From NCBI RefSeq assembly GCF_024753565.1, contig NZ_JANTPT010000002.1:1-64000 (forward strand): a DNA stretch of 64,000 nucleotides, given 5' to 3'. The notes under the pieces were generated by a model that saw only the letters and a program-made list of their open reading frames with translations, ran no database searches and had not been told where the DNA came from. Made by a program: the position numbers and the translations under genes. This DNA is from Mechercharimyces sp. CAU 1602 (GTDB lineage Bacteria; Bacillota; Bacilli; Thermoactinomycetales; JANTPT01). This document shows positions 27,413 to 37,447 of the stretch, one piece after another. Position 1 is the stretch's first letter, and each line of letters starts with the position of its first letter.

Positions 27413-29314
27413 ATGAATCTGTTACAACTGAAGAAGGTGTCCAAATTTTTCGGCGCTACTCCAGTTTTTACTGAGGCTGATTTACGTGTCAACAGTAACG
27501 AGCGTGTCGGGATCGTAGGTCCTAATGGAGCTGGCAAAACGACGCTCCTGAAAGTTATCTTAGGTCAATTAGAAGCAGATCAAGGCGAGATCACCAAAGC
27601 AAAGCAAATTCGCATCGGTTATCTCGCACAAACAAGTGGTTTAGACTCCAGTCGCACCATCTGGGATGAAATGTTATCTGTATTCTCCCACATACGTGAG
27701 ATGGAGACACAACTCCGTCATTTGGAAAACATGATGGGGGATGAGAAAGTATTAGCTGATGATCATAAATACCAAAAAGTATTAGATCAATACGCTCATA
27801 TCCAGGAAGCGTTTGAAAAGGAAGGCGGATATCAATATGAGACCCGTATTCGCGGAGCTCTACACGGTCTCGGGCTAGCTAATCTATCCTGGGAAGAAGC
27901 GATTATTCATTCCTTGAGCGGGGGGCAAAAAACCCGAGTCGCTCTCGCCAAGATGTTATTAGAAGAGCCTGACCTACTCATCCTCGATGAGCCGACCAAT
28001 TATCTGGATATGGAGGCGTTACGCTGGCTAGAGCAAACATTGGCTCACTATCCTGGAGCCTTACTCCTCGTCTCTCATGATCGTTACTTTCTCGATCAAC
28101 TGGTGGAAATCATTTATGAAGTGGATCGTCATCAAGTGACTCGTTATACAGGCAATTATACTCGCTATTTACAGGAAAAAGAAGAGCGTCTCCTCCAATG
28201 GCAACAAAGCTACGACAAGCAGCAAACAGAAAAGAACAAGTTGGAAGAGTTTGTACAACGCAATATTGCTCGTGCCTCTACCACAAAACGGGCACAGAGC
28301 CGCCGTAAAACGCTTGAAAAAATGGAGATGATCACTGCTCCACCAAAAGAGCGTAAACAAGCTGCTATACGCTTTCCTACTGCCCAAACCAGTGGACAAG
28401 AGGTACTCACCATCACAGATGTAAGTATTGGGTACGGAAGCAATGTATTGGCTGACAACCTTCACTTCCACATTAAGCGGGGAGAACGTATCGCCTTATT
28501 AGGTCCAAACGGCGCCGGCAAAACGACCTTATTAAAGACAATTGCTGGTCGCCTCCCCATTTTAGCTGGAGAAATACAATTTGGAGCAGGCGTACAGATG
28601 GATGTCTATGATCAGGAGCAGACAGGCCTCACCCCCGAAAATACCGTGCTGGATGAATTGTGGAATGAGCATCCCAATTTGGATCAAACAACTGTCCGTT
28701 CTTATCTCGGACAATTCCTCTTTCATGGCGATGATGTTTTTAAACTCATCTCTTCTCTCTCCGGCGGAGAAAAAGCACGCCTATCTCTATTAAAGCGAAT
28801 GATTAATCGCGCCAATCTGCTTCTAATGGATGAACCGACTAACCACTTAGATATGCCCAGTAAAGAACGCTTAGAAGATGCATTACAAACATATACGGGT
28901 ACCCTTTTATTTGTTTCGCACGACCGTTATTTTATCAATAAATTAGCGACACATATTATTCGTTTAACTCCCACCGGCTTACTTCACTTCGAAGGAAATT
29001 ATAACCAGTTCCTGCAATTTGAAGCAGAGCAACAAGCTGCCCAGCAAGCAAAGAAAAAAGAAAGTTCCCCTGTTCGCAAGAGCAAAGAGCATGAGAAGAA
29101 AGAGACCGTTTCTGTAGCTCAATCCTTAGCAGCACTGGAAGATACCATTGCTCAATTAGAAGAGGAGAAAGAGAAAATCGAAGAAGAACTGTGTCAGCCT
29201 GAAATATTTCAACAGCCGGATAAGAGTCAACCTCTACAAGAACAGCTAACCCACCTTACCAACCAAATAGAAAAGCAGACTCAGAAGTGGTCCGAGTTGG
29301 CTGAAGAGATTTAA
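27413..29314 (+). CDS. ydiF: ABC-F family ATP-binding protein (YdiF-like)
   Basis: The 633-residue cytoplasmic protein has two ABC domains without membrane segments. Walker A motifs are GPNGAGKTT at residues 36-44 and again near 364, signatures are LSGGQKTR and LSGGEKAR, and Walker B regions end LDEPTNYLD and MDEPTNHLD. The inter-domain linker is basic and helical, and the C-terminal 80 residues form a Glu/Lys/Gln-rich coiled coil, as in YdiF/Uup. ABC-F proteins act on the ribosome. AGGTG precedes the ATG. It is the only rightward gene in this block. Confidence 0.93.
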   Translation: MNLLQLKKVSKFFGATPVFTEADLRVNSNERVGIVGPNGAGKTTLLKVILGQLEADQGEITKAKQIRIGYLAQTSGLDSSRTIWDEMLSVFSHIREMETQLRHLENMMGDEKVLADDHKYQKVLDQYAHIQEAFEKEGGYQYETRIRGALHGLGLANLSWEEAIIHSLSGGQKTRVALAKMLLEEPDLLILDEPTNYLDMEALRWLEQTLAHYPGALLLVSHDRYFLDQLVEIIYEVDRHQVTRYTGNYTRYLQEKEERLLQWQQSYDKQQTEKNKLEEFVQRNIARASTTKRAQSRRKTLEKMEMITAPPKERKQAAIRFPTAQTSGQEVLTITDVSIGYGSNVLADNLHFHIKRGERIALLGPNGAGKTTLLKTIAGRLPILAGEIQFGAGVQMDVYDQEQTGLTPENTVLDELWNEHPNLDQTTVRSYLGQFLFHGDDVFKLISSLSGGEKARLSLLKRMINRANLLLMDEPTNHLDMPSKERLEDALQTYTGTLLFVSHDRYFINKLATHIIRLTPTGLLHFEGNYNQFLQFEAEQQAAQQAKKKESSPVRKSKEHEKKETVSVAQSLAALEDTIAQLEEEKEKIEEELCQPEIFQQPDKSQPLQEQLTHLTNQIEKQTQKWSELAEEI

Positions 29315-29415: not shown

Positions 29416-30384
29416 TTACGAAATAGTATGTGACACCATCTCTATCTGACGCAAGAGCCGTTCCCGATGAATCGCCTCTGTCTGTGCTGCTTCCACTGAT
29501 ACCGCGCAAAAAGAAAGCTGATCTCCTGGAGCTAATTGAGCAACTACAGACAGGTCAGCTGAGATCACAGTGGCAATTTGTGCATATCCCCCTGTTGTTT
29601 GGCGGTCTGCCATCATGACAATCGGTTGACCCTCTGGTGGAACCTGCACCGTTCCTTTGGTTACCGCTTCACTTAACAACTCGATCTGCGTACGCTCCAT
29701 CTTCTGTTCTCCATAAAGGCGGTATCCCATACGATTGGAGTCTACACCGATCTGATATGACTGTGTAAAAAAGAGTTCTATGCTCTTCTTGCTAAACCAC
29801 CGATCATCTGGACCTAGCACAACGCGCACTCTGGGTGCCGCCGAATATGAGGGTAGTAACGAAGGAGAAAGTTTGCGACCCGCTCGAGTACTACGTGAGC
29901 TCTGCCCGATGCGTATACGATCCCCTTTTTGTAAAGGCCGTCCCTCAAAGCCGCCGATCCCACCTTGAACATAGGTGGAGCCACTTCCTAATACTTCTTC
30001 TGACTCTATTCCTCCCGCTATTGCGACATAAGTGCGCCATCCTGTTCTCCTTGTTGTGAAAGTAAGTGTTGCTCCTTTAGCTAGCCGAAAGCTTCGCCAA
30101 GGAAGGATCTTCGTGGCTCCCACCTTCGCCCCTAAATCTGCCCCACCTAATGCCAGCAACAGATCACACTCTGCTCGCAAACTGCTGCCTGGACCTGTCA
30201 CTTCTAGTACGGGTGCAGTACGAGCGTTACCTACCAATAAATTAGCAAGCTGGTGTGCCTGCTCATCCATCGCCCCTGCAGGTACAATTCCCAGCTGCTG
30301 ATAACCATAGCGCCCCCCATCTTGAATCGTCATGAACATACCAGCCCGCACAACCTCTAATTCTCTAAGCCCTGGTTGATTCAT
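29416..30384 (-). CDS. pxpC: 5-oxoprolinase subunit PxpC (KipA-like, biotin-dependent carboxyltransferase family)
   Basis: The 322-residue protein matches the PxpC/KipA family: MTIQDGGRYGYQQLGIVPAG near the N-terminus, NLLVGN, LEVTGPG, and the C-terminal MADRQTTGGYAQIATV. With PxpA and PxpB it hydrolyses 5-oxoproline (pyroglutamate) to glutamate using ATP. It is third in a pxpB-pxpA-pxpC operon, 27 bp after pxpA. The gene order differs from the B. subtilis kip locus. Confidence 0.94.
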   Translation of the reverse strand: MNQPGLRELEVVRAGMFMTIQDGGRYGYQQLGIVPAGAMDEQAHQLANLLVGNARTAPVLEVTGPGSSLRAECDLLLALGGADLGAKVGATKILPWRSFRLAKGATLTFTTRRTGWRTYVAIAGGIESEEVLGSGSTYVQGGIGGFEGRPLQKGDRIRIGQSSRSTRAGRKLSPSLLPSYSAAPRVRVVLGPDDRWFSKKSIELFFTQSYQIGVDSNRMGYRLYGEQKMERTQIELLSEAVTKGTVQVPPEGQPIVMMADRQTTGGYAQIATVISADLSVVAQLAPGDQLSFCAVSVEAAQTEAIHRERLLRQIEMVSHTIS

Positions 30385-30411: not shown

Positions 30412-31167
30412 TTACATTCCAATACGAATCCCTTCTGCCCGTAAGCCATTATACAGCTCCTGCAAAAATCCCAGTGCTTGTGGTGAATCCCCATGTACGC
30501 AAATCGTATCCGCCTGTAAATGTATTGATGTTCCGGTAACCGTGCGCATGGTGCCCGTGCGCAGGCAGGTAATGATTTGCTCGATTGCTTCAGTAGAGCT
30601 GGTTATTAACGCATTCTTCTGACTGCGTGGAGTTAAACTCCCATCGGATTGGTAGGTACGGTCAGCAAACACCTCTTCTGCTACCGTAAGCCCTAGTTTG
30701 CGCCCTCTTTCCACCAACACACTTCCTGCCAGAGCATACAGTACTAACGACGTATCCAAATCATACACCGCTTTTGCTATCGCTTCCGCGATAGTGGAGT
30801 TATGCGCTCCCATATGATATAAAGCTCCATGAGGTTTCACATGATGAAGGCGACCGCCATGAAGGTGAATAAACGCTTGCAACGCACCGATCTGATACAC
30901 CACGAGATTGTAAACCTCTCTTGCTTCCATGTCCATATAACGACGCCCAAACCCCATTCGATCGGGTAATCCAGGATGAGCCCCTATGTTTACCTGATAC
31001 GCTTGCGCCCTCTCCACTGATGTTTGCATCACATTGTGATCTCCCGCGTGATAACCACACGCGATGTTGACAGACGATATATAGCGATATACTTGATCAT
31101 CAACCTCTAGCCGATACACACCAAAACTTTCTCCTAGATCGCAATTCACATCGACCACGCTAATCAT
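30412..31167 (-). CDS. pxpA: 5-oxoprolinase subunit PxpA (LamB/YcsF family)
   Basis: The 251-residue protein has the family signature VDVNCDLGESFG at the N-terminus, then SVNIACGYHAGDHNVM, GAHPGLPDRMGFGRR and the HVKPHGALYH motif. It forms the 5-oxoprolinase complex with PxpB and PxpC. Its ATG lies inside the 3' end of pxpB (8-nt overlap) after GGGGGAG, so translation is probably coupled. Confidence 0.95.
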   Translation of the reverse strand: MISVVDVNCDLGESFGVYRLEVDDQVYRYISSVNIACGYHAGDHNVMQTSVERAQAYQVNIGAHPGLPDRMGFGRRYMDMEAREVYNLVVYQIGALQAFIHLHGGRLHHVKPHGALYHMGAHNSTIAEAIAKAVYDLDTSLVLYALAGSVLVERGRKLGLTVAEEVFADRTYQSDGSLTPRSQKNALITSSTEAIEQIITCLRTGTMRTVTGTSIHLQADTICVHGDSPQALGFLQELYNGLRAEGIRIGM

Positions 31168-31930
31168 TTTTCTCCCCCTTACTAGTACTGCTAATACGAT
31201 ACTCGCCTGCTTTTACCTCTTGCTCAATCTGATGATATACTGCACGACTAATTGGAATAAAGCGAAGGTAATCACCTGCTCGATACGGTACTAGCTCAGG
31301 ATCATTCCAATCCAGCAAAGGAATAGGGGTACGACCGATGATGCGCCATCCGCCTGGAGAAGAAATTGGATAAACCCCTGTCTGCGTGCCCGCAATCCCC
31401 ACCGATCCGCTCTCCACATAAGGGCGGGGAGTAGCTAAACGAGGTGTAGCAATTCGTGAGGACATTCCGCCTAAATAAGGAAATCCTGGTGTGAAGCCGA
31501 TCATATAGATGAGATAATCGGGACGGCTATGTTCCCTAATCACTTCTTCTTCACTCACATGATGAATGCATGCCACATCTACTAAGTCAACCCCCAGCTC
31601 TTTCTCATAACAGACAGGAATTTTAAGTCGCCTAGGAGAGAATCGCTCCTCGTGCTTGTCAGCATGTAATTGATATAATTGCTCCACCAGCATGGTGTAG
31701 TTTACTTCGTATGGGTTGTAATAGATGGTCACACTTCCATAGGTGGGCACCCACTCTTCTATTCCCACGAGTGGATTGGACTGCAGTAGCCTACACCATT
31801 GACGCACGCGTCGATGGAGTTGAGGGGAGATCTCTCTCCCAAAGGACAAGCGGACGGCACGATCTCCCATAGGATGAATGGAGAATTGACCCTTCTTGTC
31901 TCCTAAATGAACCTCCTTCTCCTCCCACAA
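31160..31930 (-). CDS. pxpB: 5-oxoprolinase subunit PxpB (KipI-like)
   Basis: The protein has the KipI/PxpB features: SIHPMGDRAVRLSFG, VTIYYNPYEVNY, GFTPGFPYLGGM and VGIAGTQTGVYPISSPGGW. It probably forms the PxpBC heterodimer; KipI of B. subtilis also inhibits the sporulation kinase KinA. The start is uncertain. The open frame runs back to 32035 through DnaA boxes, which is unlikely to be coding. A perfect AAGGAGG at 31918-31912 is followed by no in-frame ATG, GTG or TTG at the right distance. I place the start at the TTG at 31930 (256 residues); the first in-frame ATG is at 31870. Confidence 0.85.
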   Translation of the reverse strand: MWEEKEVHLGDKKGQFSIHPMGDRAVRLSFGREISPQLHRRVRQWCRLLQSNPLVGIEEWVPTYGSVTIYYNPYEVNYTMLVEQLYQLHADKHEERFSPRRLKIPVCYEKELGVDLVDVACIHHVSEEEVIREHSRPDYLIYMIGFTPGFPYLGGMSSRIATPRLATPRPYVESGSVGIAGTQTGVYPISSPGGWRIIGRTPIPLLDWNDPELVPYRAGDYLRFIPISRAVYHQIEQEVKAGEYRISSTSKGEKND

Positions 31931-31931
31931 T

Positions 31932-32166
31932 TTATCCACAACCCCTCTCTTCAAAACATACAACCCACACTTCTTTTCCACTAAGTTATCCACATTATCC
32001 ACAGGGGTGTGGATGGGAATATCCACACCCCCCATGAAATCGTAATTATATGGGAAATTTCGGTTAATTTCGACAAAAAGAGCGGGTTTTCATCTACCTG
32101 ATGGTTCTGTTTTTCCATATAGTTCTCACTTTTTATCCACTAAGTTATCCACACAGCTGTGGATAA
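31932..32166. repeat. DnaA-box cluster between tsaD and pxpB
   Basis: Five perfect DnaA boxes (TTATCCACA) occur in 235 bp: 31932-31940, 31986-31994, 31995-32003 and 32145-32153 on the plus strand and 32158-32166 on the minus strand. Two one-mismatch copies lie at 32019-32027 and 32133-32141, and a two-mismatch copy at 32008-32016. Two boxes are directly abutted and two face each other across four bases. dnaA and dnaN are not here, so this is probably a DnaA-titrating or regulatory cluster rather than oriC. Confidence 0.88.
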
Positions 32167-32371: not shown

Positions 32372-33415
32372 TTACTCCGCAGCCTCTTCATTGATTAAAG
32401 GTAAGTTAGCGTTGGCATTTAGGGTAAAGTCAGCCCGGTGCCCTCCTTGATAAGCAAAGGTACCGGCCGCAGCGATCATAGCAGCATTATCAGTACAAAG
32501 AGAGAGTGGAGGAAGACGAAGACAAACATCGGTAGTATTTGTACGAGATGTCAATGCTGAGCGCAAAGCTTTATTCGCCGATACCCCACCTGCTAAGAGT
32601 AATTGATTCACTCCCCTTGCCTTCACTGCCGCTAATGATTTTTCTACCAATACCTCTATCACAGCTGCTTGAAAACTTGCTGCTAAATCAGCGGAATAAA
32701 TCTCTTCCCCCCGTTGAGTAGCATTGTGAATGGTATTCATCACAGCCGATTTCAACCCACTAAAACTAAAATCAAAAGAGCCCTCTTCTAACCATGCACG
32801 TGGAAGAGAATAGCTAGGCTTTCCCCTTTGGGCCAACTTTTCTACTTGGGGTCCTCCAGGATAAGGGAGCTGTAACAAACGCGCCACTTTATCATACGCT
32901 TCCCCAGCCGCATCATCGCGCGTACGTCCTAAGCGTTCAAATTGCATGTGATCTTTCATATATATTAATTCAGTATGCCCACCTGAGACAACAAGTGCTA
33001 CTAAAGGAAAAGAAAGCGGCTGAATTAAGTGATTAGCATAAATATGACCCGCAATATGATGAACGGGAATCAGGGGTATCCCTGTAGAAAAGGAGAGCGC
33101 TTTTGCCGCCGAAACACCTATAAGAAGAGCCCCGACCAAGCCCGGACCTTGTGTAACAGCAATAGCAGTTATTTCATTCAGCTTTACTTCTGCCTGATCT
33201 AACGCCTCTTGGATAACCAATGTAATATTTTCTACATGACGACGTGAAGCTACTTCAGGCACTACGCCACCAAAGCGTTGATGCACTTCCATCTGCGAAG
33301 CGACTACGTTCGAAAGAATGTGCTCCCCGTCCGCCACCACCGACACCGCTGTTTCGTCACAGCTCGTCTCCAAACCCAGCACCAATGTCCGTTTGTTCAA
33401 TGTATTATTTCTCAT
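32372..33415 (-). CDS. tsaD: tRNA N6-adenosine threonylcarbamoyltransferase TsaD
   Basis: The 347-residue enzyme (Gcp/YgjD/Kae1 family) transfers threonylcarbamoyl to A37 of ANN-decoding tRNAs. It has [11 protein letters not shown] (residues 14-24), the metal ligands His120 and His124 in [24 protein letters not shown] and the C-terminal [12 protein letters not shown]. Its ATG overlaps the end of rimI by 11 nt, so it is the last cistron of the thiL-tsaE-tsaB-rimI-tsaD operon. Confidence 0.98.
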
Positions 33416-35037: not shown

Positions 35038-36027
35038 TCACCTCTTTCGTCCATGGTTATAACCGGCACGTGTCAACTGCTCCCGTTCACCTGATCGTAC
35101 AATCTCGACCTCACTTCCCCGACCGCTCTCCACATAGCCTATCGGGATCATCGGGGTCGGCGCGCTGGCAGCTTTACGTTGAAACCAAGTTGCTGGTGCA
35201 GTGCCCAGCAGCTGAAAGTCTTCCCCACCGTGTAGAGCCCACTCATACGGGTCCATCTGCATTTGGTCAGCATAAGCGATCACTTCCTTACTCAGTGGTA
35301 GCTTATCCTGTTCCAATAGAAGATGTACACCACTTGCATCAGCGATCTCCCACGCTTCTTGCGAAATCCCATCACTAATATCATTTAAAGCGATACGCTC
35401 GCCGCTAGCAGCTAGCCACTTTCCCAATGTCACACAGGGATGCGGTCGCCGGTGTGCCTGTAGCAGTTTAGGATGTAGCTCACTACGCTCCTCATCATGG
35501 TGAAGGAGAATATTTAAACCAGCAGCTGAGTCCCCTAACGTACCTGTAACAAACACAATATCTCCTTTCTCTGCAGTAGAACGACGTAGCGCCCTCCCTG
35601 CCCTCACCTCACCCAGTATCGTCAAAGTAAGTACCAATGTATGCGGGGATGAGACCGTATCTCCTCCTACCAGAGTAACCTCATGCTTAGCTGCTAACTG
35701 ATACAGCCCTTTGTAGATTTCTACAAGTTCTGATTCTGACCAGTTACTCGGAACTGCAAGTGAGAGCAAAGCAAAGGTTGGCGTAGCACCCATCGCCGCC
35801 ATATCACTCAAGTTAGCGGCCATCAGCTTCCAACCAATATCAGCTGGTCGCATGGTAGCTCGCAAAAAATGAACCGTCTCCACCATCGTATCACTACTGA
35901 TTACCACCTGATACCCAGGCGCCATACTTACAACGGCTGCGTCATCACCCGCGTCAACAACGACAGGTCTTGTTACTGGTGGACGCTGAGCCAACAGTTG
36001 CTGGATCAGTACAAATTCATCACGCAT
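35038..36027 (-). CDS. thiL: Thiamine-monophosphate kinase
   Basis: The 329-residue enzyme of the PurM-like fold phosphorylates thiamine monophosphate to the diphosphate. It has VVVDAGDDAAVVSM, the metal site VISSDTMVETVHF, LSDMAAMGATPTFALLSL and LVGGDTVSSP. GGGGTGATGAGGA precedes the ATG. It is the first gene of the thiL-tsaE-tsaB-rimI-tsaD operon. Its start codon is only 19 nt after a tRNA-array terminator, leaving no room for a promoter of its own. Confidence 0.96.
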   Translation of the reverse strand: MRDEFVLIQQLLAQRPPVTRPVVVDAGDDAAVVSMAPGYQVVISSDTMVETVHFLRATMRPADIGWKLMAANLSDMAAMGATPTFALLSLAVPSNWSESELVEIYKGLYQLAAKHEVTLVGGDTVSSPHTLVLTLTILGEVRAGRALRRSTAEKGDIVFVTGTLGDSAAGLNILLHHDEERSELHPKLLQAHRRPHPCVTLGKWLAASGERIALNDISDGISQEAWEIADASGVHLLLEQDKLPLSKEVIAYADQMQMDPYEWALHGGEDFQLLGTAPATWFQRKAASAPTPMIPIGYVESGRGSEVEIVRSGEREQLTRAGYNHGRKR

Positions 36028-36046
36028 TCCTCATCACCCCGCTATA

Positions 36047-36077
36047 TAAAAAGACCGTAGCAGTAATCGCTACGGTC
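36047..36077 (-). terminator. Terminator of the first tRNA array
   Basis: GACCGTAGC pairs with GCTACGGTC around a seven-base loop (36053-36077), followed on the minus strand by TTTTTATA. thiL begins 19 nt further on. Confidence 0.9.
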
Positions 36078-36081
36078 GCTG

Positions 36082-36155
36082 TGGAGCGGGTGATGGGAAT
36101 CGAACCCACGCATTCGGCTTGGAAGGCCGATGTTCTACCATTGAACTACACCCGC
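36082..36155 (-). tRNA. tRNA-Gly(TCC)
   Basis: Full cloverleaf with encoded CCA. Acceptor GCGGGTG/CACCCGC; the anticodon loop CTTCCAA gives TCC. Last gene of the first array. Confidence 0.97.
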
Positions 36156-36180
36156 ATATTAGAAGTATGTTTTTACAAAG

Positions 36181-36257
<77 letters not shown>

Positions 36258-36292
36258 AAAGTGCGTCAGCTGCACTTACATCATAGTAGTGA

Positions 36293-36379
36293 TGGTGCGG
36301 TCGGCGAGACTCGAACTCGCACAGCCATGAGGCCACTACCCCCTCAAGATAGCGTGTCTGCCAATTCCACCACGACCGC
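36293..36379 (-). tRNA. tRNA-Leu(GAG)
   Basis: Class II cloverleaf with a long variable arm and encoded CCA. Anticodon stem CTATC/GGTAG, loop TTGAGGG, giving GAG. Confidence 0.95.
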
Positions 36380-36401
36380 GTAACTTGCTAATAGATATAT
36401 G

Positions 36402-36485
36402 TGGTGCGGGTGAAGGGACTCGAACCCCCACGTCATAGACGCTAGATCCTAAATCTAGTGCGTCTGCCAATTCCGCCACACCCGC
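36402..36485 (-). tRNA. tRNA-Leu(TAG)
   Basis: Class II cloverleaf with encoded CCA. Anticodon stem CTAGA/TCTAG, loop TTTAGGA, giving TAG. First gene of the array. Confidence 0.96.
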
Positions 36486-36554
36486 ATGGTTACGCTACAA
36501 GTAGCGATTTATTTTTGATCATCCGGTAGATAACATCTCCCGTCGACAAGTACT

Positions 36555-36583
36555 ATCTTACCACGGGGGTAAATGCGAGTCAA
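36555..36583 (-). promoter_or_regulatory. Promoter of the first tRNA array
   Basis: The minus strand has TTGACT (36583-36578), a 17-bp spacer and TAAGAT (36560-36555). GTCG begins eight nucleotides after the -10 box (36547). TGGTAAGATAG and CTTGTCG are shared with rRNA P2 at the same positions. Confidence 0.88.
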
Positions 36584-36746
36584 GCATTTTTTTATATTTT
36601 TTTATCGCAAGTGATCTGACCCACATCTATTCCTCAGCTAAGCGGTAACTTCAGTAGAAATGCTTTGCTTTACATATGTAATCCCAATCGTCCAAGCTTC
36701 ACAAGAGTGAACCACGGACAGGAGCACAAACATCCCTTATCCCTGG

Positions 36747-36787
36747 TAGGAAAAAACCTTCCCAATACACATAAAGAGAAGGTTTTT
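36747..36787 (-). terminator. Terminator of the second tRNA array
   Basis: GAAGGTTTT pairs with AAAACCTTC around a 16-base loop and ends in a T run on the minus strand, four bases after the tRNA-Lys CCA. Confidence 0.8.
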
Positions 36788-36790
36788 ATT

Positions 36791-36866
36791 TGGTGAGCCA
36801 TGCAGGATTCGAACCTGCGACACCCTGATTAAAAGTCAGGTGCTCTACCAACTGAGCTAATGGCTC
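36791..36866 (-). tRNA. tRNA-Lys(TTT)
   Basis: Cloverleaf with encoded CCA. Acceptor GAGCCAT/ATGGCTC; anticodon loop CTTTTAA, giving TTT. Last gene of the second array. Confidence 0.97.
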
Positions 36867-36889
36867 GAGACAAAAAAAATAAACATCAT

Positions 36890-36964
36890 TGGCTGGGGCG
36901 GCAGGGATCGAACCTGCGCATGACGGAGTCAAAGTCCGTTGCCTTACCGCTTGGCTACACCCCA
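36890..36964 (-). tRNA. tRNA-Gln(TTG)
   Basis: Cloverleaf with encoded CCA. It has the U1-A72 start typical of bacterial tRNA-Gln (TGGGGTG). Anticodon loop CTTTGAC, giving TTG. Confidence 0.96.
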
Positions 36965-36982
36965 ACAATATTAATAATGAAG

Positions 36983-37059
36983 TGGGGCGACTAATGGGAA
37001 TCGAACCCACGAATGCCGGAGCCACAATCCGGTGCGTTAACCACTTCGCCATAGCCGCC
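36983..37059 (-). tRNA. tRNA-His(GTG)
   Basis: Cloverleaf with encoded CCA and the extra G-1 opposite C73 that marks tRNA-His. Anticodon loop TTGTGGC, giving GTG. Confidence 0.96.
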
Positions 37060-37069
37060 TCAATATAAA

Positions 37070-37145
37070 TGGCGGAGCTGACGGGATTCGAACCCGCGAT
37101 CTCCTGCGTGACAGGCAGGCATGTTAACCCCTACACCACAGCTCC
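37070..37145 (-). tRNA. tRNA-Asp(GTC)
   Basis: Cloverleaf with encoded CCA. Acceptor GGAGCTG/CAGCTCC; anticodon loop CTGTCAC, giving GTC. Confidence 0.97.
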
Positions 37146-37166
37146 GCGTTACAATAAGTGTTGCAA

Positions 37167-37242
37167 TGGTGGACGATGACGGGTTCGAACCGCCGACCCC
37201 CTGCTTGTAAGGCAGGTGCTCTCCCAGCTGAGCTAATCGTCC
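37167..37242 (-). tRNA. tRNA-Val(TAC)
   Basis: Cloverleaf with encoded CCA. Acceptor GGACGAT/ATCGTCC; anticodon loop CTTACAA, giving TAC. Confidence 0.97.
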
Positions 37243-37254
37243 ATAATAAATTTT

Positions 37255-37330
37255 TGGTGACCCGTAGGGGATTCGAACCCCTGCATGCCAGCGTGAAAGG
37301 CTGGTGTGTTCACCGCTTCACCAACGGGCC
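37255..37330 (-). tRNA. tRNA-Glu(TTC)
   Basis: Cloverleaf with encoded CCA. Acceptor GGCCCGT/ACGGGTC with one G-U pair; anticodon loop CTTTCAC, giving TTC. Confidence 0.97.
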
Positions 37331-37354
37331 AAATAAAATATTGTCACTTCGTTA

Positions 37355-37447
37355 TGGCGGAGAGAGCGGGATTCGAACCCGCGCGGGATCTTACGACCCC
37401 CTAACGGTTTAGCAAACCGTCCTCTTCGGCCTCTTGAGTATCTCCCC
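37355..37447 (-). tRNA. tRNA-Ser(GCT)
   Basis: Class II cloverleaf with a long variable arm and encoded CCA. Anticodon stem ACGGT/ACCGT, loop TTGCTAA, giving GCT. First gene of the second array. Confidence 0.97.

Follow-up and report, generated by a model that had tools for sequence, protein, structure and literature searches.

DnaA is the protein that starts chromosome copying, and tsaD (also named gcp) is an essential tRNA-modification gene. In Bacillus subtilis a cluster of DnaA boxes lies at gcp/ydiF, and the primary papers on it, known to us through reviews, are reportedly those of Ishikawa (2007) and Okumura (2012). Among the top 20 regions bound by DnaA in vitro, the stretch downstream of gcp/ydiF is region 4; it contains 10 sites, has a Kd of 0.15 uM for ATP-DnaA, and at 55 nM yields 16-fold more DNA with ATP-DnaA than with ADP-DnaA (PMC4447404). 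Six clusters outside oriC jointly restrain initiation in this species, their joint deletion leading to early initiation and a strong effect being seen only after the removal of all of them (PMC5295017), and a cluster moved to the terminus has a weaker effect (PMC5010248). A preliminary description of the locus considered here had stated that B. subtilis carries a cluster beside gcp which helps to limit initiation, and this is right (PMC4447404, PMC5295017). Judged from sequence, the cluster found downstream of tsaD in Mechercharimyces sp. CAU 1602 is the apparent orthologue of the gcp/ydiF cluster, so that what is new is the breadth of its conservation and not the element itself.

The cluster and its gene neighbourhood

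The window, that is, the whole stretch of DNA analysed (64,000 nucleotides), harbours between positions 31932 and 32166 (235 bp) five perfect DnaA boxes (TTATCCACA) and two one-mismatch copies, a motif scan of the window returning the same count as had been given in the preliminary description. The cores of related clusters could be aligned in the order A-(21 to 25)-B-9-C-(42/43)-E-12-F. In these terms the CAU 1602 cluster is formed by box F (31932..31940, plus strand, perfect), a degenerate box D (31974..31982, plus strand, TTTTCCACT, two mismatches, 12 bp from box C), box C (31986..31994, plus strand, perfect), which abuts box B (31995..32003, plus strand, perfect) with a 9-bp step, and box A (32019..32027, plus strand, ATATCCACA, one mismatch), a 24-bp step away from box B. 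Boxes A, B, C and F are in register with those of the relatives, and E is lost. An inverted repeat with 11-bp arms, read from the sequence, surrounds box A (32004..32031, no strand, GGGGTGTGGATGGGAATATCCACACCCC). Three further boxes are located at 32133..32141 (plus strand, TTATCCACT, one mismatch), 32145..32153 (plus strand, perfect) and 32158..32166 (minus strand, perfect), the last being the sole minus-strand box among the seven.

The cluster lies downstream of the stop (32372) of tsaD (32372..33415, minus strand), between this gene and pxpB, both of which are on the minus strand. The longest open reading frame of pxpB covers 31160..32035; because residue 56 is the first to match the PxpB family, the gene probably starts in fact near 31870-31940, where its start is poorly defined. 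The first box (31932) overlaps this start, a small correction to the earlier placement of the cluster between tsaD and the pxp cassette. The cassette continues with pxpA (30412..31167, minus strand) and pxpC (29416..30384, minus strand), and beyond it an ABC-F ATPase gene (abcF, 27413..29314, plus strand) occupies the position of ydiF; this gene is convergent with tsaD and about 3 kb from the cluster, with pxpBAC in between. The preliminary description had a pxpBAC cassette and other rearrangements enter the locus, but pxpBAC did not enter in this genome alone: several Thermoactinomycetales genera (five loci) have pxpBAC between tsaD and abcF, with or without a good cluster, and a private insertion is ruled out by the occupation of the same interval in these genera. 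Its placing of the cluster far from dnaA and dnaN is accurate, dnaA-dnaN being on contig C4 and the cluster on contig C2. Elsewhere in the window (35970-37412), short open reading frames with peptides typical of tRNA genes read as protein (e.g. QLVEHLTFNQGVAGSNPAWL) suggest a tRNA gene cluster.

Exact boxes occur 64 times in the genome (2.93 Mb, 11 contigs), as compared with 16 times for the reversed letters, and by a Poisson estimate the chance of five boxes within 235 bp is about 2e-9. The tsaD cluster is the densest box group of the genome outside oriC and the only strong cluster found there, and the sole other group of comparable density is oriC itself, at rpmH-dnaA-dnaN on contig C4. When the genome is ranked with the profile R1, the conserved core of the cluster (31933..32027, minus strand) comes first with 43 bits and the two oriC halves come second and third (28 bits), the window itself being one of the 20 rows of the R1 model. 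Other close pairs of perfect boxes outside oriC and tsaD are found only at 121510-121531 of contig C3, in an intergenic position between two genes, and at 351461-351480 of contig C1, where a long gene encoding a LamG-like or phage-tail-like protein ends.

Distribution across the Bacillota

Among the named tsaD loci, boxes lie close 3' of tsaD in Kroppenstedtia, Brevibacillus, Planococcus, Oceanobacillus, Lysinibacillus, Macrococcus and others, and also in Alkaliphilus and Sporomusa; the cluster occurs at tsaD across the Bacilli and is also present in Clostridia and Negativicutes. A survey of 110 other Bacilli genera, each represented by one genome picked regardless of the cluster, left 107 genera with enough sequence, and 70 of these 107 carry four or more boxes, each with no more than one mismatch, in the 300 bp downstream of tsaD. 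With reversed letters none of the same 107 genera reaches four boxes, and never even three. Four boxes are likewise held by 38 of 747 pieces of about 1 kb taken from the named loci, all 38 lying within about 3.6 kb of the end of tsaD, on its downstream side. In an even draw of 149 genomes from the Bacillota, R1 matches 0-5 kb downstream of tsaD were obtained in at least 78, and upstream in none among the matches listed; R1 was built from tsaD-side clusters, and the plain box counts are independent of it. The tsaD of Escherichia coli, used as an outgroup with one genome, has no box cluster. The comparison of tsaD downstream regions, which the preliminary description had set as a test able to refute its reading, leaves that reading standing, as the relatives do have boxes.

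Within the Thermoactinomycetales, four or more boxes are present in 18 of the 40 genomes examined, and roughly half of the genomes are without the cluster. Genes inserted at seven Paenibacillus-type loci and in Jeotgalicoccus displace the cluster, which then lies some 2.2-3.5 kb away from tsaD; abcF was identified at six of these displaced loci, and there the cluster ends near the 3' end of this gene. The cluster is therefore kept at the locus through rearrangement, yet it is dispensable, and its position between the convergent 3' ends of tsaD and abcF is incidental and varies among relatives. Selection on place, as proposed in the preliminary description, is supported by the presence of the cluster at tsaD in Bacilli, Clostridia and Negativicutes, but such selection is not absolute, about half of the order being without it. 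The selected place could be that relative to tsaD or that on the chromosome. The distance from tsaD to oriC was rejected as an explanation of presence or absence: no association was seen in 31 genomes, with approximate distances and with presence scored among the matches listed.

A description of the conservation of the gcp cluster was not found in the literature searched, in which the papers of Okumura (2012) and Ishikawa (2007) are represented through reviews and may already contain one. Within the literature examined, to the extent that it was accessible, the cluster is conserved far more widely than is described.

Spacing, phasing and conservation of the boxes

The layout recurs together with the boxes. 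Distances of 9, 12, 21, 22, 42, 43 and 54 are each found in 18 to 43 of 68 genera, as compared with null means of 6 to 10, and the boxes are helically phased, with a vector strength of 0.58-0.62 at 10.5-11 bp (0.62 at 10.75 bp), where the null reaches at most 0.16; the null in both cases treats genera as independent and ignores their relatedness. The Sporomusa cluster shares the 24-9-54 spacing of CAU 1602, and in cluster-bearing Bacilli one box orientation is dominant (360 vs 117). When Thermoactinomycetales are compared with other Bacilli, identity is 83% in the boxes and 30% in the spacers, for which composition predicts 27%; the rows compared were selected for having boxes, so that the spacer figure is the informative one.

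These data bear on whether the cluster could be a functionless box-rich stretch, present by chance or by inheritance. Such a reading could draw on the fact that related genomes are not independent and that R1 was itself derived from tsaD-side clusters. However, the boxes are kept next to spacers near chance identity, profile-free box counts give the same link to tsaD, and clusters persist despite displacement by inserted genes, and the reading is hardly credible. A chance origin in particular was rejected on the link to tsaD in both box counts and profile, on the spacer identity and on the Poisson estimate. The cluster is a real, functional-looking element.

Proposed role in the control of initiation

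By analogy with B. subtilis, from which DnaA binding, a preference for ATP-DnaA and an effect on initiation are carried over, the gcp/ydiF orthologue probably acts as an oriC-like decoy, by which ATP-DnaA is taken up and initiation delayed. The protein, above all in its ATP form, would assemble cooperatively on the helically phased boxes, in an array which resembles the box layout of oriC without its unwinding element. The cluster would then compete with oriC for ATP-DnaA, so that initiation would be delayed, and passage of the fork would double the copy number of the cluster.

The likeness to oriC could also be taken to mean that the cluster is a secondary or relict replication origin, in that its box layout resembles both oriC halves and its step lengths are similar to those of the oriC at rpmH-dnaA-dnaN, where boxes step 8-9, 44 or 53, and 12. 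Unlike this oriC, the cluster is without an AT-rich unwinding region, dnaA, dnaN and a skew switch: no GC-skew switch is present in the window, the AT-richest 30-bp stretch reaches 77% as compared with 87% in the dnaA-dnaN gap, and the gene annotation of the window has no initiator gene nearby. On skew and AT content a secondary origin was rejected, and we regard it as highly improbable.

A different use of the same boxes would be a local transcription switch, in which DnaA represses or blocks a neighbour (here pxpBAC, with a promoter perhaps within the cluster) or read-through from tsaD. A promoter-like site, TCGAAA-17 nt-TATAAT (32045..32073, minus strand), is located inside the cluster and faces pxpB, and several B. 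subtilis clusters, that of ywlC among them, are sites where DnaA works as a transcription factor (PMC8203912). This site is weak evidence, one such site being found where 1.1 are expected by chance, and gcp and ydiF are absent from the eight directly regulated sets of the review (PMC8203912). In addition, 18 families are represented among the downstream neighbours at 88 loci, a variety that speaks against a single regulated neighbour, and ABC-F, where found, is always convergent, so that many loci have no downstream promoter there. A transcription switch appears rather unlikely; an effect of DnaA on pxpBAC transcription in this genome is possible, since the promoter-like site lies within the cluster.

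The decoy reading supposes that DnaA is held by the cluster; a datA-like element would instead speed the hydrolysis of ATP by DnaA. The preference for ATP-DnaA and the origin-side position of the B. subtilis cluster do parallel datA (PMC4447404, PMC5010248), but B. subtilis is without IHF, Hda and datA (PMC13220808), and no report of hydrolysis at the cluster was found in the literature searched. Accelerated hydrolysis is very unlikely as its mode of action.

Other conserved clusters in the Bacillota

Matches to R1 other than those at tsaD were expected to represent oriC. This expectation was wrong, 60 of the 64 listed non-tsaD matches not lying within 2 kb of dnaA, and these led to a second conserved cluster of similar layout, present in many Bacillota in the comFA-comFC / hpf-secA neighbourhood, where it lies near the middle of the loci. 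Genes of this one neighbourhood, namely comFA-comFC, flagellar or zinc-ribbon genes, hpf-secA, or a gene for a solute-binding protein, are shared by 36 of the 40 R1 matches that were examined away from both tsaD and dnaA. The comF/hpf site is absent from the eight strong sites of B. subtilis (PMC4447404).

At tsaC (ywlC), the other locus of t6A synthesis, 27 of 30 Bacilli genomes show four or more boxes over the promoter region and the start codon; most of the 30 had been chosen for having the tsaD cluster. These clusters lie from -350 to +30 of tsaC at similar offsets, in an arrangement unlike that of the tsaD cluster, and none was found in the tsaC gene body or downstream of it in the 30 genomes. 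The tsaC gene of CAU 1602 (contig C2, 236488-237075) has no box cluster, and the direct targets of DnaA listed for B. subtilis include ywlC (PMC8203912). The clusters at both t6A loci may be a coincidence or may reflect a link between replication and translation. The proposal of a connection, through tsaD and tsaC, between DnaA and the t6A tRNA-modification pathway of Bacilli is post hoc, the tsaC pattern having been noticed after the fact, and it is unlikely. If it were true, the two clusters would couple the start of replication to translation capacity, and the link to tsaD would be functional and not only a matter of a convenient place near the origin.

Comparison with known systems

Until now, clusters outside oriC amounted to six sites that act jointly in a single model species. 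That one such site has stayed at a single gene, its spacing phased, in groups from the Bacilli to the Clostridia and Negativicutes points to an ancestral element of initiation control, and the cluster is a strong candidate for an old replication brake known so far only from B. subtilis. The recurring step lengths suggest a rule, open to testing, for the requirements of a DnaA array other than boxes.

Like datA of E. coli, a DnaA-box cluster away from oriC that holds initiation back in a manner dependent on its chromosomal place (PMC5010248), the tsaD cluster lies outside oriC, and here the same restraining role would apply; datA, however, works with IHF and ATP hydrolysis, and B. subtilis does without IHF (PMC13220808). 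The closest likeness is to the gcp/ydiF cluster, with many boxes in a short stretch, downstream of tsaD, in the same place. The convergent genes gcp and ydiF directly flank the cluster in B. subtilis, whereas in CAU 1602 pxpBAC separates it from abcF. It is one of six clusters outside oriC in B. subtilis and the only strong one found outside oriC in CAU 1602, in which a clean test by a single deletion would be possible.
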